A stretch of 64,000 bases of DNA from Brevundimonas sp. EYE_349. Lineage in GTDB: Bacteria > Pseudomonadota > Alphaproteobacteria > Caulobacterales > Caulobacteraceae. Positions 37,142-43,540 of this stretch are shown one piece after another. The number at the start of each line of letters is the position of its first letter. Within the stretch, counting starts at the first letter, position 1. Location of the stretch: the NCBI RefSeq assembly GCF_023147505.1, contig NZ_JAHXPB010000007.1:62001-126000 (forward strand). The letters run 5' to 3'. Under the pieces are notes generated by a model. It was not told where the DNA came from. It ran no database searches and saw nothing but the letters and a program-made list of their open reading frames with translations. Made by a program: the position numbers and the translations under genes.

Positions 37142-38254
37142 TCAGGCCGCCGCCGGATGTCCGGTCAGCGCGGGCGCCAGCAGGCCCTCGGTCAGAGCGC
37201 GCACCACCGGCACGGCCACCGCATCGCCCATCAGCTTCAGCGCCGCGCTTTCGCTGGCGGGCAGGCGATAGGCGTCCGAAACCCCCATCAGACGCGCCGC
37301 CTCGCGCCCGGTCAGGCGTCGCACCCTGACCCGGCCCTGGTCGCACACCACCACATATTGTCGCGACGATCCGCCCGCCGGCGTTCTCAGGCATCCGGCC
37401 AGGCCGTCGAAGCGGATCTCCAGCCGCTGCACCTTGCGGCCGTCCTCCATGCGAACCCGGCGATAGGCGGCGCCGACTGTGCGCTGGCCCGACGCCAGGG
37501 CCGCCGCGATCCGCGCCTTATGCAGGGGCGCGGCCAGCGCCAGGATCGCCTCGGGATCGTCCAGCCAGGCGACCGCCGCGTCCAGCTCCAGCACGGCGGC
37601 CAGATCAAGGTTGCGCCGGGGCGGGCGGGGCAGGGACCACCAGGCCCAGGCCGCCTTGACCATCTCGGGCAGGCGGGCGTGGGCGGCGACCAGACGGGCC
37701 GAATGGAAGGGGGCGGCAGGCCCGGACGCGCGCGGCGCCTCGCCCTTGACGGCCACCACGAACAGGCGTGGCCGCGACTGGGGCAGCCAGTGGGCGGCAT
37801 CCATCTCCAGCGCCCCGACCGTATAGCCCGCCTCGACCATGGCGGCGCAGACGGCCGCGAAGTCCCGACCCTGGCCAGAGGTCAACAGGCCGATCACATT
37901 CTCCAGCACCACGAGGCGCGGCCCGCGCCCCTCGGCCGACAGCCCCTGCATCAGCCGCCAGAACCCCCAGAAGGCGCCCGACCGCCCAGCCTCTAGCCCG
38001 CCGCGCGCGCCCGCCAGGCTGACGTCCTGACAGGGCGAAGAGGCCCAGGCCAGGTCCGGTCGTCCGGGCAGGTCATCGACCGTCAGGCCCCAGACGTCGC
38101 CCTGCCGAAACGGCGTCTCGGGGTGATTGGCCGTGAAGGCCCTCGCCTTGGCCTGATCCATGTCGTTGGCGAAGATCGTATCGATCCCGGCCATGCCAAG
38201 ACCGGCCAGGCCGCCGCCGGCGAAGAACTCATATGCGGTCGGGCGAATCGACAT
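37142..38254 (-). CDS. DNA (cytosine-5-)-methyltransferase, orphan
   Basis: 370 aa. All m5C motifs are in order: I FFAGGGLAGLGMAG; IV SSPCQD with catalytic Cys75; VI VVLENV (Glu118-Val120); VIII QSRPRLFVV; IX about RRLTGREAARLMG; X GDAVAVPVV. The target-recognition region lies at about residues 200-290. No restriction endonuclease or other modification subunit is encoded next to it, so it looks like a solitary methyltransferase. The recognition site cannot be predicted. Upstream lies a 66-bp tandem duplication, downstream the hairpin-rich spacer. Confidence 0.93.
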   Translation of the reverse strand: MSIRPTAYEFFAGGGLAGLGMAGIDTIFANDMDQAKARAFTANHPETPFRQGDVWGLTVDDLPGRPDLAWASSPCQDVSLAGARGGLEAGRSGAFWGFWRLMQGLSAEGRGPRLVVLENVIGLLTSGQGRDFAAVCAAMVEAGYTVGALEMDAAHWLPQSRPRLFVVAVKGEAPRASGPAAPFHSARLVAAHARLPEMVKAAWAWWSLPRPPRRNLDLAAVLELDAAVAWLDDPEAILALAAPLHKARIAAALASGQRTVGAAYRRVRMEDGRKVQRLEIRFDGLAGCLRTPAGGSSRQYVVVCDQGRVRVRRLTGREAARLMGVSDAYRLPASESAALKLMGDAVAVPVVRALTEGLLAPALTGHPAAA

Positions 38255-38264
38255 GGCCGCACCA

Positions 38265-38396
38265 TAACCCGGCGTCGCCCCTTGACCGAGGCCGTCCGGC
38301 TTCTCACCTGCGGCCTGCCTTCATAATCCTTAACCCGGCGTCGCCCCTTGACCGAGGCCGTCCGGCTTCTCACCTGCGGCCTGCCTTCATAATCCT
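38265..38396. repeat. Tandem duplication, two 66-bp copies
   Basis: Two apparently identical 66-bp units, starting TAACCCGGCGTCGCCCC and ending TTCATAATCCT, lie head to tail at 38265-38330 and 38331-38396. They fill the region between the divergent methyltransferase and lipoprotein genes, so the promoter region of one or both is doubled. Confidence 0.85.
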
Positions 38397-38420
38397 TGGT
38401 CGTTCGTCGAGGAGACCGCC

Positions 38421-38906
38421 ATGCGCCCCATCCCGTTCGCCCTCGCCCTGTCCGCCGTCCTTGGCGGCCTGACCCTGGCGGGCTGCTATGACCGTGACGA
38501 CGCCAAGCCCAAGGCCGCGCCGGAGCCTCAGGTCGCCGCGGTCCTGGCGGGTGTGGACCTGGGCAAGCCGGTTCGCGCCCTGGGCACGGAACCCTTCTGG
38601 AGCGTCGAGATCACCCCCGACGCCCTGATCTACACCCGCGTCGATCAACCGACCCAGCGCGCCCCCAATCGCGGCGCGACGGTCCAGGGGACGGTGGCGA
38701 CCTTCGCCAGTTCGACGGATCTGAACCAGGCGCTGAACGTCACCCTGATCGCCACCGAATGTTCAGACGGGATGAGCGACCGCACCTATCCGCTGACCGC
38801 GCGGGTCGAAATCGGCGCCGACACCCTGACGGGTTGCGCCGCCTCCGTTTCGGCCATCATGAGCGCGGGCGAAAGCGGCCCCGTCGTGGATCGCCCGGCT
38901 GGCTAG
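38421..38906 (+). CDS. Lipoprotein with GTEPFW motif
   Basis: 161 aa. The signal ends LTLAGC with Cys22 as lipidation site. The mature part has VRALGTEPFWSVEITPD, a motif found in COG3650-type envelope proteins of unknown function, and two further cysteines (ATECSDG, TLTGCAA) that could form a disulfide. It starts 25 bp after the 66-bp tandem duplication and ends 5 bp from the convergent LytTR gene. Function unknown. Confidence 0.75.
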   Translation: MRPIPFALALSAVLGGLTLAGCYDRDDAKPKAAPEPQVAAVLAGVDLGKPVRALGTEPFWSVEITPDALIYTRVDQPTQRAPNRGATVQGTVATFASSTDLNQALNVTLIATECSDGMSDRTYPLTARVEIGADTLTGCAASVSAIMSAGESGPVVDRPAG

Positions 38907-38911
38907 GCTGT

Positions 38912-39691
38912 TCACCACCAGTCGGCGTCGCGCAGCATCCGGGCGTAACGTCGGCTGACCGGGGCCGACAGGCCGCCGTCCAGCGTCAGGGTGGCGCGGC
39001 CGTCGCCGCGCTCGACCCCCCGAACGGCGTCCTTGGCCACCCACCAGCTGCGGTGCGTCTGGGCGCCTTCCAACCCCTCCAGCTCCTCCACGGCGTCCGA
39101 CAGCCGCATCAGGATCAGGTCCGACCCCCGGTCGGTGTGGATGCGCAGATAATGGTCCTCGGCCTGGACCGCGCGGATCGTCGCTCCTCTCAGCTTCATC
39201 GGCATCCGATCCAGAAACCGCACGGGTCGGGCCGGCGTCTCGGGCGGGGTGGCATAGGTCTGGATCGGCCGGGCGCGTCCCAGGAAGACGTTCAGCGTCG
39301 TCACCGCCGCCGTCACCACCAGGACCGGCACGACCAGTTGCGGCAGGGCCGCCAGCGGGTACAGTTGCTGGGCGAAGAACAGCCCCGTCGCCGCCCAGAC
39401 GATGACGCACAGCGGCCCTGTGATCACCATGACCATGACCGCGATAGTCAGCCACGGCCGCTCGTCCGTATCCAGGAACCGGCCGACCAGCGCGCTGCAC
39501 AGATGGCCCCACAGCCCGCCCAGCACCATGACCACGACCCAATAGGCCAGCCGTGGCCCGAACGCGGCGCCTGCGGATCCGAACGCCCCGGTCATCGCCA
39601 GGAAGACGCCGCCCAGAACGGCGACGATCAGGCCGCGCAGGAAGGTTCGGCGGCGCTCGGCGGCAAGGGTCGTCATGGCGGCTTTCGGCAT
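38912..39691 (-). CDS. Membrane-bound LytTR-family transcriptional regulator
   Basis: 259 aa from the ATG at 39691 (MPKAAMTTLAAE); the Met six residues on is an alternative. Four hydrophobic segments cover about residues 16-140. The C-terminal 100 residues are a LytTR DNA-binding domain: IRAVQAEDHYLRIHTDRG, LSDAVEEL, THRSWWVAKDAV and the ending VSRRYARMLRDADWW. LytTR proteins bind pairs of short direct repeats; a perfect 11-bp pair 21 bp apart lies in its own upstream region (39745-39776). No receiver domain, so it is a one-component membrane regulator. Divergent from a DUF2306 protein. Confidence 0.88.
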   Translation of the reverse strand: MPKAAMTTLAAERRRTFLRGLIVAVLGGVFLAMTGAFGSAGAAFGPRLAYWVVVMVLGGLWGHLCSALVGRFLDTDERPWLTIAVMVMVITGPLCVIVWAATGLFFAQQLYPLAALPQLVVPVLVVTAAVTTLNVFLGRARPIQTYATPPETPARPVRFLDRMPMKLRGATIRAVQAEDHYLRIHTDRGSDLILMRLSDAVEELEGLEGAQTHRSWWVAKDAVRGVERGDGRATLTLDGGLSAPVSRRYARMLRDADWW

Positions 39692-39744
39692 CGGAGGATC
39701 GCGCCTTGAGATCACGATTTCTCGCCGGGCGAAAGATGGGTGGG

Positions 39745-39776
39745 CGTTGGCGCAAGCCGGATGGCCGTTGGCGCAA
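39745..39776. promoter_or_regulatory. Direct repeats, likely LytTR operator
   Basis: CGTTGGCGCAA occurs twice, at 39745-39755 and 39766-39776, exactly 21 bp (two helical turns) apart, with matching flanks (TGGGCG / TGGCCG). This is the spacing LytTR regulators recognise. The site sits between the LytTR gene and the DUF2306 gene, 54 bp and 58 bp from their starts. Confidence 0.7.
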
Positions 39777-39833
39777 TCGAGGATGCGGCGGTGGGCATGG
39801 CGGATCAGGGCGGTGCAAACGGAGATTTCCCCC

Positions 39834-40364
39834 ATGCCTCGCCTATCCCGTCTCTGGCCGTCCGTCCTGGCCCTGTTGCTGCTGATCGTCCCGCTTGTCG
39901 CCTATCTGGTGATCGACAACGGACGGCGGGCGCGGATGGGGTTCAGCCTGCGCGTCCCGCGCTGGGACCTGTTTGCGGCTTCGCCGACGACGATCCAGAT
40001 CCATGTCGCGGCGGCCGTGACGGCGCTGGCGATCGGCATCGTCCTGCTGGTCGGGGTCAAGGGGAACCGGCTGCATCGGACGTTGGGCTGGGCCTGGGTG
40101 CTGGCCATGGGCGCGACGGCGATCAGTTCGTTCTTCATTCACCAGCTCAATCCGAACGGGCCCGGCGGCCTGTCGCTGATCCATCTGCTCAGCGGCTGGA
40201 CCGTGGTCGCCCTGCCGATGGCGGTCTACGCCGCGCGCCGCCACCGCGTCGCCGTCCATCGGCGCGCCATGACGGGCATGTTCGTCGGCGGGCTGATCGT
40301 CGCCGGCGCCTTCACCTTCCTGCCTGGCCGGCTGATGTGGGCGATCTTCTTCAGTCCGAACTGA
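39834..40364 (+). CDS. DUF2306 four-helix membrane protein
   Basis: 176 aa from the ATG at 39834 with GGAG upstream. Four hydrophobic helices carry the DUF2306 pattern: TTIQIHVAAAVTALAIG (His in helix 2), GVKGNRLHRTLGWAWV, SLIHLLSGWTVVALP and HRVAVHRRAMTGMFVGG. The repeated His residues are reminiscent of haem or metal ligands, but binding is not shown. It is divergent from a LytTR regulator with a shared operator. Its stop codon abuts that of the TetR gene (TGATCA at 40362-40367). Confidence 0.85.
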   Translation: MPRLSRLWPSVLALLLLIVPLVAYLVIDNGRRARMGFSLRVPRWDLFAASPTTIQIHVAAAVTALAIGIVLLVGVKGNRLHRTLGWAWVLAMGATAISSFFIHQLNPNGPGGLSLIHLLSGWTVVALPMAVYAARRHRVAVHRRAMTGMFVGGLIVAGAFTFLPGRLMWAIFFSPN

Positions 40365-41123
40365 TCAGTCCAGCCGCGGCGACATCCCGACCACGGCCCG
40401 GAATCCCGCCGCCGCGAACCGGACCATATAGTCGCCCGCCGTCTCCAGATCGCCCGAGCGCGCCCGCCCGTTCGACAGCCGGTCCAGCCGCCCCGTCTCG
40501 CCCAGCGTCAGGGTCAGGGCGCCCGACAGATTGTGATAGCCCCAGTACAGATCCACCTCGCTGGCGTCCGGCAGGACCCGCGCGATCAGTTCGATCAGCC
40601 GGTGGATGGCCGGGTCGAAATACCGGGCCATGGTCTCGCCGCCGAAGCTGGGGTTGGCGTTGGTCTGGGCCACCAGGGCGGCATAGTGTTTCCACCCCGG
40701 CCCGCCCTTCAGCGACCATTCGAACGGCGGCCGCAGGAAGGCCTCCAGCAGCCCCTCCAGCGTCATCGCCTCGCCCGCGCCTTCGGCGTAGCGGTCGATG
40801 GCGGCGACCCGGTCTGCGTTCCACACTTCGGCCCGGCGCAGGAAGACCGCGTCGAACAGCGCGCGCTTGGCCCCGAAATAATAGTGGACCAGGGCGGTAT
40901 CCACGCCCGCCTCGCGCGCCACCTCGCGGATGGTGACGCCATAGAAGCCGTGTTTGGAGAACAGGTCCTCGGCCGCGTCCAGGATCAGGTCGCGTGTCTC
41001 CCCGGCCGCCTGGGCCTTGGCCTTGGGCGGGCGCCCGCGTCTGGTCGGCGCCGCGCCCGCCGCCTTTCGACGCGCGGCGGCCACGGGGCGAGGGGCGGGC
41101 AGGGCGGCGTCGGTCTTGCTCAT
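40365..41123 (-). CDS. TetR-family transcriptional regulator
   Basis: 252 aa. A basic N-terminal tail (about 40 residues, RRGRPPKAKAQ) precedes the TetR helix-turn-helix: ILDAAEDLFSKHGFYGVTIR then VAREAGVDTALVHYYFG. The ligand domain (TYFDPA-type, PFEWSLKGGPGW, GYHNLSGALTLTLGETGRL) fits the TetR_C group found in AefR/CmeR-like regulators. It is divergent from the TonB receptor gene, and a palindrome (41195-41207) in between is a good operator candidate. The effector is unknown. Confidence 0.9.
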   Translation of the reverse strand: MSKTDAALPAPRPVAAARRKAAGAAPTRRGRPPKAKAQAAGETRDLILDAAEDLFSKHGFYGVTIREVAREAGVDTALVHYYFGAKRALFDAVFLRRAEVWNADRVAAIDRYAEGAGEAMTLEGLLEAFLRPPFEWSLKGGPGWKHYAALVAQTNANPSFGGETMARYFDPAIHRLIELIARVLPDASEVDLYWGYHNLSGALTLTLGETGRLDRLSNGRARSGDLETAGDYMVRFAAAGFRAVVGMSPRLD

Positions 41124-41311: not shown

Positions 41312-43540
41312 ATGAACCGTCATGTGAAGTGCGCGCTGCTGGCCGGGGCGGCGTGGGGCGTGCTTGCCGGGGCCTCTGTCGCCCAGGACGCCGAAACGAG
41401 CGCCCAGGCGGCGAGCGCCAACCAGGACACGGCGACCGTCGACGACATCGTCGTCACAGCGCGCCGCCGCGACGAACAGCTGAAGGATGTGCCGATCGCG
41501 GTTTCGGCCCTCAGCGCCGAACGTCTGGAGCAGACGGGCGCCGTCAACATCACCGCGCTTCAGCAGCAGACGCCCAACGCCACGGTCCAGATCGCGCGCG
41601 GCTCCAACTCCACCCTGATCAGCTTCATTCGCGGCGTGGGCCAGCAGGATCCGCTGTGGGGCTTCGAGCCCGGCGTGGGCCTCTATGTCGACGACGTCTA
41701 TGTGGCCCGTCCGCAGGGGGCGGTGCTGGACATCTTCGACATCTCGCGCATCGAGGTGCTGCGCGGTCCGCAGGGCACGCTGTACGGTCGCAACACCATC
41801 GGCGGCGCGATCAAATACGTCACCAAACGTCTGGGCCAGGATCCCAGCCTGACGGCCCGCGCCGAGGTGGGCGCCTATAACGAGCACAACTTCCTGCTGT
41901 CGGGTTCGGTCCCGGTCGGTCAAACCTTCGCCATCGGCGGGGCGGTCGCCACCTATCAGCACGACGGCTACGGCAAGAACCTGAACACCGGTCAGGATCA
42001 GTACGACAAGGACGTCACCGCCTATCGCGCCAGCGCCGAGTGGACGCCGAACGACAACCTGTTCTTCCGCCTGGCATGGGATCGTGTCGAGGATGACTCC
42101 AGCCCCCGCCACGGCCACCGTGAAGTCACGTCTTCCGACGGCCTGTGGCGCGCGCCCGCCGGCAAGTACGACACCTATGCCGGCATCACCGGCGAGCAGA
42201 AGGTCGTGACCGAGGGCGTGGCCCTGACCGGCGAATACCGCGTCAACGACAGGCTGACGCTGAAGTCGATCACCGCCTATCGCTCGGGCGACACGGCGAC
42301 GGTCATCGACTTCGACCAGACGCCGAACCCGACCCTGGACGTGCCGGCCATCTATGCCGACCACCAGTTCACCCAGGAATTCCAGGCCTTGTTCACTGGC
42401 GGGCGCTGGTCCGGCGTGGCGGGCGTCTATTATCTGGACGGAACCTCGTCCGGCGTATTCGACACCATCGCCGGCAATCTGGGCCTGTCGATCGCGGCGG
42501 CCGGTTCGGTGGACACCAAGTCCTTCTCGATCTTCGGCGACTTCAGCTACGACCTGACGGACCGCCTGCACCTGTCGCTGGGCGGCCGCTACACCCGCGA
42601 CGACAAGGACGCCTCGGTCCTGCGCCAGTTCTATCTGGGCGCCACCCGCAGCCCGCTGACCGGCGGCGCGCCGCGCGCGGTCTTTGCGACCCGCACCAAC
42701 TACACGGCCTCCGACACCTTCGAGAAGTTCACGCCGCGCGCCAGCCTCTCGTATGACTTCTCCGACCAGATGACCGGCTACGCCTCGGTCAGCCAGGGCT
42801 TCAAATCGGGCGGCTGGGACATGCGCGGCGACGCCGCCCTGGTGCCTCAGACGGTCAACGGCTACCAGCCCGAGACGGTCACGACCTATGAAGTCGGCCT
42901 GAAGGGTTCGGCTTTCGACCGGCGTATGAACTTCGCCTCGGCCATCTTCTACTCCGACTACAAGGATCAGCAGATCACGACCCAGCAGGTGGCCACGCCG
43001 CCCGCCGTCGGCATCGCCTCGGTGGTCGACAACGCCGGCGCCTCGACCATCTACGGCTTCGAGCTGGAAGGCTCGGCCTATCTGACCGGCGACATCACCG
43101 CCAACTTCTCACTCGGCTATCTGAAGAACGAGTTCGACGAGTTCATCACCCTGGTCACGGGCGCGCCGGTCGATATCTCGGACCAGCGCAAGCCCCAGAA
43201 CTCGCCGGAATGGTCGGCCTACTACGGCATGACCTGGCGCGGCGATGTCCTGGGCGGCGAGATCCGCGTCACCCCGTCGCTGTCGTATCGCTCGGACTAC
43301 CATCTGTTCGATGCGCCCGATCCGATCCTGGACCAGAAGGGCTATGTCCTGGCCGACGCCAGCGTGATCTGGACCGCGCCCAGCAAGCGCTGGGAAGTGG
43401 GTCTGTTCGGTCGCAACCTGACCGACGTCCGCTACAAGGTCGGGGGCTACAGCTTCCCCGGCGCGACCTACAACAACTCGATCAGCGCCTTCTACGGCCC
43501 GCCGACCACCTATTCGGCGCGCCTGACCTATCGGTTCTGA
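41312..43540 (+). CDS. TonB-dependent receptor
   Basis: 742 aa with a signal peptide (residues 1-24, SVAQ) and a TonB box-like DDIVVTARRRDEQLKDVPI. The plug domain follows (ALSAERLEQTGAVNITALQQ to IEVLRGPQGTLYGRNTIGGA), then a 22-strand barrel ending YSARLTYRF with a C-terminal Phe. It takes up a large or scarce substrate across the outer membrane with energy from TonB-ExbBD. The type with the plug motif QGTLYGRNTIGGAI and barrel GFKSGGWD is common in sphingomonads and caulobacters; the ligand is unknown. Followed by a terminator and an MFS gene. Confidence 0.95.
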   Translation: MNRHVKCALLAGAAWGVLAGASVAQDAETSAQAASANQDTATVDDIVVTARRRDEQLKDVPIAVSALSAERLEQTGAVNITALQQQTPNATVQIARGSNSTLISFIRGVGQQDPLWGFEPGVGLYVDDVYVARPQGAVLDIFDISRIEVLRGPQGTLYGRNTIGGAIKYVTKRLGQDPSLTARAEVGAYNEHNFLLSGSVPVGQTFAIGGAVATYQHDGYGKNLNTGQDQYDKDVTAYRASAEWTPNDNLFFRLAWDRVEDDSSPRHGHREVTSSDGLWRAPAGKYDTYAGITGEQKVVTEGVALTGEYRVNDRLTLKSITAYRSGDTATVIDFDQTPNPTLDVPAIYADHQFTQEFQALFTGGRWSGVAGVYYLDGTSSGVFDTIAGNLGLSIAAAGSVDTKSFSIFGDFSYDLTDRLHLSLGGRYTRDDKDASVLRQFYLGATRSPLTGGAPRAVFATRTNYTASDTFEKFTPRASLSYDFSDQMTGYASVSQGFKSGGWDMRGDAALVPQTVNGYQPETVTTYEVGLKGSAFDRRMNFASAIFYSDYKDQQITTQQVATPPAVGIASVVDNAGASTIYGFELEGSAYLTGDITANFSLGYLKNEFDEFITLVTGAPVDISDQRKPQNSPEWSAYYGMTWRGDVLGGEIRVTPSLSYRSDYHLFDAPDPILDQKGYVLADASVIWTAPSKRWEVGLFGRNLTDVRYKVGGYSFPGATYNNSISAFYGPPTTYSARLTYRF

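Follow-up and report, generated by a model that had tools for sequence, protein, structure and literature searches.

A four-helix transmembrane LytTR regulator and the divergently transcribed gene for a DUF2306 membrane protein in Brevundimonas sp. EYE_349 probably form a conserved regulator-target unit, in which a HigX-like membrane one-component regulator would act through direct repeats lying between the two genes. That LytTR and DUF2306 make up one regulatory unit is very probable because their pairing is conserved and because the repeated signal goes with DUF2306. This result yields a predicted binding site together with a predicted target for the transmembrane LytTR proteins of the Caulobacterales; HigX, the studied member of this class, was as late as 2026 still described as "currently mysterious" (PMC13384398). 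The predicted operator also offers a genetic handle on DUF2306, a membrane family without an assigned function in bacteria. In the literature searched, which mostly excluded subscription papers, we found no description of a LytTR-DUF2306 pair or of its operator; the two names were mentioned together only as separate entries of a table, and LytTR appeared together with Brevundimonas only in the paper on HigX.

A divergent pair of predicted membrane proteins

We analyzed a 64,000-nucleotide stretch of the genome (the window), in which the two genes diverge from a shared region holding the repeats (Table 1). A search of the whole genome found one LytTR and one DUF2306. Of 80 named relatives of the LytTR protein, most belong to Brevundimonas. 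The original prediction of a membrane LytTR regulator divergent from a DUF2306 protein is borne out by Pfam matches above the cutoffs and by structural models of both proteins. The regulator matches the LytTR domain (PF04397) at 61.2 bits against a curated cutoff of 22.6, and its AlphaFold model (mean pLDDT, 84.7) has four long N-terminal helices (residues 9-34, 44-70, 79-107, and 113-139) followed by the LytTR part. As modeled, the protein is a four-helix bundle joined to a LytTR domain without a periplasmic domain, the composition of a HigX-type regulator. An in-frame ATG at 39676 is the counterpart of the start picked in several relatives. A LytTR profile had no match among PDB sequences at 0.01, and neither the LytTR nor the DUF2306 protein matched an NCBIfam model above its cutoff.

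The DUF2306 protein matches PF10067 at 45.2 bits (cutoff, 31.6) and is modeled with five long helices (mean pLDDT, 72.7). It had been described as histidine rich; the enrichment is mild, with six histidines in 176 residues, and four of these (H57, H81, H117, and H142) are invariant among 26 aligned sequences. For its fold we found no PDB sequence match and no Foldseek match at an E value of ≤0.001; the best VIA-align hit (Z, 11.7) was to designed helical bundles, which for helical models may reflect only a common arrangement. We take the protein to be a regulated output, perhaps a histidine-ligated redox or envelope protein. PraC, which a fungus requires to epoxidize pramanicin, is described as biosynthetic, and its likeness to the protein studied here is that of the family name (PMC12895699).

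Table 1. Features of the LytTR-DUF2306 locus and its neighbors, in window coordinates
Feature	Position	Strand	Basis
C5-methylase gene	37142-38254	-	
Lipoprotein-like ORF, no Pfam match	38421-38906	+	
4TM-LytTR regulator gene, 259 aa, ATG start at 39691	38912-39691	-	Pfam PF04397, model, 22-sequence alignment
Four predicted membrane helices, coding part, residues 9-139	39275-39667	-	AlphaFold model
LytTR DNA-binding domain, coding part, residues 171-255	38927-39181	-	Pfam match range
Possible degenerate extra copy, weak, 6/11 bases as in C	39724-39734	+	One 21-bp step upstream of C
Candidate operator half-site C, CGTTGGCGCAA	39745-39755	+	Exact copy
Candidate operator half-site D, CGTTGGCGCAA, starting 21 bp after the start of C	39766-39776	+	Exact copy; kept before DUF2306 in relatives
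DUF2306 gene, encoding a 176-aa membrane protein with five predicted helices	39834-40364	+	Pfam PF10067, 26-sequence alignment, model
TetR regulator gene, abuts DUF2306	40365-41123	-	
TonB receptor gene	41312-43540	+	

A 66-bp sequence is perfectly duplicated in tandem (2.0 copies, 100% matches) at positions 38265-38397, in the gap that separates the C5-methylase gene from the lipoprotein-like ORF.

The direct repeat in the window

The perfect direct repeat noticed in the original prediction is present as described, with two exact copies of CGTTGGCGCAA placed 21 bp apart from start to start. The single 11-mer is not rare (three matches in the window at one mismatch or fewer versus 2.2 expected). 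When the two copies are taken together as a degenerate pair, CGTTNGCGNA-N11-CGTTNGCGNA, the window site is the sole perfect match in the 3.44-Mb genome; ten places match with two mismatches, and at three mismatches or fewer there are 108 matches versus 71 for a reversed control. Within the 150 bp upstream of DUF2306, the P value of the pair is 0.0033, which is the floor of 300 dinucleotide shuffles. LytTR regulators are described as binding pairs of 9-bp direct repeats 10 to 13 bp apart, mostly just upstream of a −35 box (PMC6193735, PMC11347149). The window repeat has a 9-bp core and a 12-bp spacer, inside the 11 to 13 bp that mark the spacers of LRS operators.

Repeat finding also aligned 39728-39748 with 39749-39769 at 76%, which is the basis of the weak third copy in Table 1; a clearer copy stands at that position in one relative (L047). 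A box near TTGAGAYCAYGATTTC (39706-39721) lies between LytTR and the repeats and is retained also in several genomes without DUF2306; such boxes are possibly part of the LytTR promoter.

Pairing and operator layout in the Caulobacterales

The pairing proposed from the window recurs widely. Across the order, 214 of 299 genomes gave a match to a profile built from proteins of the genus, and we read 70 loci, 30 fetched automatically (five of them from Brevundimonas, including the window) and 40 hand-picked to cover families. In 63 of the 70, a divergent LytTR gene lies upstream of DUF2306 within 1.5 kb, sometimes behind another gene. By family the pairing was seen in 28/28, 14/14, 10/12, 11/13, and 0/3 loci, that is, in four of five families, and it extends to 21 of 25 genera. 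The genes outside the pair match less often: between families, outer ORFs matched in 138 of 1,349 locus pairs on the DUF2306 side and in 27 of 373 on the LytTR side, counted on stretches of at least 700 bases. A DUF2141 gene recurs between LytTR and DUF2306, in Brevundimonas and in other families.

Outside the order, 30 class-level DUF2306 loci (L341-L370), fetched automatically from 64 matching genomes among 289, held no LytTR ORF within about 1.5 kb on each side by a Brevundimonas LytTR profile, which could miss a distant LytTR. In that sample the pairing therefore looks specific to the Caulobacterales.

In many of the order loci the putative operator comprises four half-sites, each following the pattern C(G/A)TTN(G/A)CGNA. 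Half-site A is forward, B is reverse and overlaps the end of A, C is forward 30 to 32 bp after A, and D is forward 21 bp after C, so that an inverted pair (A-B) precedes the direct pair (C-D). The window has C and D, and A-B is not recognizable there (P = 0.88 for A-B-C). The complete layout was found at P ≤ 0.01, the floor of 100 shuffles, in 49 of the 63 loci with LytTR and in one of the seven without; these P values are partly circular because we had already seen these loci when the consensus was set, and the counts are not independent because the loci are related. The stronger point is that the spacing recurs in separate families. The one LytTR-less locus with the layout (L197) is cut by a contig end, and the layout was absent from the other six, whose fetched stretches lack LytTR and are not cut short by a contig end.

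Ten of the 14 LytTR loci that failed were retested near the LytTR start, and six pass. Three of the six are L210, L216, and L238, where the layout lies near the LytTR start, before a DUF2141-DUF2306 unit; L213, L234, L239, and, at P = 0.03, L232 fail the retest. The other four comprise three Brevundimonas loci with C and D only and L187 at P = 0.02.

Repeats accompany DUF2306 in Brevundimonas

Among 131 Brevundimonas genomes searched, 124 had at least one LytTR match and 35 had a match to this DUF2306; the other 96 gave no match to it. We fetched 118 stretches around these matches and tested 34 DUF2306 upstream regions, omitting one (L146, genome G108) with a weak DUF2306 match of 30% identity. 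The consensus pair stands before DUF2306 at P ≤ 0.01 in 28 of the 34, the window included, at the matching place and with drift in the spacer. Across all 34 regions, self-similarity peaks at an offset of 21 (mean best 11-mer match, 8.62 versus 6.45 in shuffled sequence; z, 11.6), and the peak appears separately in the window-like group (16 regions) and in the DUF2141-DUF2306 group (8 regions). A group of five (L104, L127, and L141-L143) peaks at 31 and then at 21 (z, 3.9 and 1.9), and another group of five shows no peak at 21. In four of the latter (L089, L111, L112, and L123) LytTR is next to DUF2306, yet there is no repeat; the fifth (L144, from the 83% complete genome G117) has DUF2306 without the repeat in a genome without a LytTR match. 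L141 fails the pair test owing to the chosen start codon, and the same genome passes the A-B-C-D test as L177.

The position of the repeats follows DUF2306. In the window's group the two genes are adjacent and divergent with the repeats in between. Eight loci (L066, L068, L069, L074, L077, L080, L083, and L099) have a DUF2141 ORF between LytTR and DUF2306, and in all eight the repeats lie directly before DUF2306, about 0.5 kb or more from LytTR; a repeat test near the LytTR start found nothing significant there, so these loci show no sign of LytTR autoregulation. In the two loci where DUF2306 is apart from LytTR (L142 and L143, genomes G071 and G100), the repeats are retained in both, in the A-B-C layout as well; in G071 DUF2306 sits beside a threonine dehydratase gene identified by Pfam, and G100 has an alike stretch. 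Conversely, the consensus pair was found upstream of LytTR in 17 of 31 cases where the fetched locus has DUF2306 and in none of 82 where it has none. LytTR comes directly after tetR in many of the loci that lack DUF2306. By its placement across these genomes, the repeat appears to serve the DUF2306 transcription unit as its operator.

An earlier, plain offset count upstream of LytTR was set aside, as it was muddied by the period-3 signal of coding sequence, with tetR coding sequence lying there in many relatives; the tests on DUF2306 upstream regions and the consensus pair test superseded it. In the offset test on DUF2306 upstream regions, a control set of 83 LytTR upstream regions without DUF2306 also gave high z values at offsets 18, 21, 12, 15, 39, and 27; each of these is a multiple of three, the pattern that coding sequence would give, and a search with the motif itself finds the pair in none of 82.

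A second LytTR type with its own DUF2306

A second LytTR type (33 to 40% identical) was read in 21 loci, 20 of them fetched, including eight chosen for the repeat, plus L159. The repeat occurs at zero or one mismatch, reading away from LytTR, in 9 of the 21, and a divergent DUF2306 occurs in 12 of the 21 (Pfam checked for L159, L241, L245, and L259); when L159 and the eight loci chosen for the repeat are set aside, the divergent DUF2306 occurs in three of the remaining 12. In L252 a hydrolase-like gene takes the place of DUF2306 beside LytTR, which recalls HigX and is a lead.

Proposed regulation and alternative readings

From this arrangement we infer that the LytTR domain, acting from the membrane, would bind the 21-bp-spaced direct repeats C and D upstream of the DUF2306 promoter and would control DUF2306, most likely as an activator; DUF2306 would be the output of the regulator, and feedback would also be compatible. 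We place the regulator-target reading first, and activation as likely, because the spacing is of the LytTR type, because family f1 has a TTGAG box, and because HigX works from the membrane. In 13 of 16 family f1 loci outside the genus, the TTGAG box begins 6 bp after D, and in most of those loci CTCC follows 14 bp after TTGAGR, an arrangement resembling that of an activated promoter. No sigma-70 consensus promoter was found at the window site.

HigX (CCNA_03131) of Caulobacter crescentus is reported to be a transmembrane LytTR protein that can act while membrane bound and for which the helices seem to be required, and the term "fused LRS" is used in that account for alphaproteobacterial proteins (PMC13384398). 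The LytTR domains of C. crescentus are all described as coming with membrane segments (PMC10269533). HigX and the window regulator share four N-terminal helices and a C-terminal LytTR domain, a likeness by description, and both come from the Caulobacterales; their neighbors differ, being ctrA and a hydrolase gene for HigX and DUF2306, tetR, the lipoprotein-like ORF, and the methylase gene in the window (PMC13384398). The motif reported for HigX from ChIP (ATGTTASC/GSTACCAT) is an inverted repeat and differs in sequence from the window repeat, and the main text of that paper has no occurrence of DUF2306 (PMC13384398). CoxC of Afipia, as described, is also a membrane-bound single-component alphaproteobacterial LytTR protein acting on spaced direct repeats, TTNNNGCN; it differs in having a seven-helix MHYT sensor, a CO signal, and three repeats over the −35 box, and it represses (PMC11347149).

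In an alternative that we consider unlikely, DUF2306 would sense a signal and hold or license the membrane LytTR protein, with the operator serving a feedback loop, as in the LRS pairs HdrRM and BrsRM. Those pairs likewise join a LytTR protein to a multihelix membrane protein and use direct repeats with a period of about 21 bp, and Bacteroides LRS-like operons are described with LytTR proteins that carry membrane segments, as here (PMC6193735). Both proteins of the window pair are predicted membrane proteins, they co-occur in 21 of 25 genera, and the pairing recurs for the second LytTR type, with a DUF2306 subtype of its own. The resemblance to HdrRM and BrsRM drawn in the original prediction holds for the repeat spacing, as in LRS operators. 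In architecture the systems differ: their LytTR protein is soluble and encoded first in an operon, whereas the window regulator has four predicted helices, its partner is a DUF2306 protein, and the pair is divergent here and in the 63 of 70 loci (PMC6193735).

Selection on LytTR also speaks against this alternative. LytTR is under purifying selection also where this DUF2306 is missing: dN/dS was 0.06 to 0.20 across 12 comparisons of genomes lacking a match to it and 0.07 to 0.17 across 10 of genomes that have one; the comparisons share sequences, and some genomes of the first set (e.g., G052, locus L255) carry the other DUF2306 subtype. Because purifying selection is alike with and without it, LytTR seems to have work independent of this DUF2306. 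The retained repeats where DUF2306 stands apart from LytTR (G071 and G100) and the eight DUF2141-type loci without a repeat beside LytTR point the same way, as does the report that HigX without its helices failed to regulate its promoter, an experiment in which the truncated protein was below detection (PMC13384398). A regulator conserved without this DUF2306 and a repeat that tracks the DUF2306 unit would fit DUF2306 as the output.

In a bolder form of the sensing idea, which we hold to be doubtful, DUF2306 would sense a redox or small-molecule signal through its invariant histidines and gate the membrane LytTR protein, the pair having been duplicated as a unit with its four-half-site operator. 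If true, that operator would place a membrane-bound regulator on an inverted repeat as well as on a direct one, and this alphaproteobacterial sensing module would correspond to the Gram-positive LRS in a divergent, membrane-fused form. The natural losses of DUF2306 in Brevundimonas and the second pair make the regulator-target and partner-inhibitor models directly testable.

It is quite improbable that another regulator, such as the neighboring TetR protein, binds the repeats with LytTR as a bystander. TetR proteins bind inverted repeats, A-B is of this kind, and in the window tetR abuts DUF2306; but direct repeats spaced at about 21 bp form the pattern described for LytTR regulators, and a homologue of the window tetR occurs in 14 of the 70 order loci, all in one family. 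The A-B-C-D layout is moreover missing from the six uncut loci without LytTR, the C-D pair is missing from all 82 LytTR upstream regions without DUF2306, and like repeats stand beside the second LytTR type. That the repeat is a functionless chance or structural duplication, as its mere two copies and the commonness of the 11-mer might suggest, is hardly credible given that it keeps its place in 28 of 34 relatives despite spacer drift and recurs in four families.

Genus-wide matches to the repeat pattern

A scan of the genus at one mismatch or fewer gave matches in 54 of 131 genomes (77 listed versus 36 for a reversed control). The sites lie at the LytTR-DUF2306 locus in 15 genomes and beside the second LytTR in nine, with the rest elsewhere. 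The genus genomes also hold recurring one-mismatch matches, CGTTGGCGGACGGGCCGTGATCCTTGGCGAA and CGTTGGCGGCCATCTGGCGGCCGTTGGCGAA, away from the listed LytTR genes; these are perhaps conserved coding sequence.
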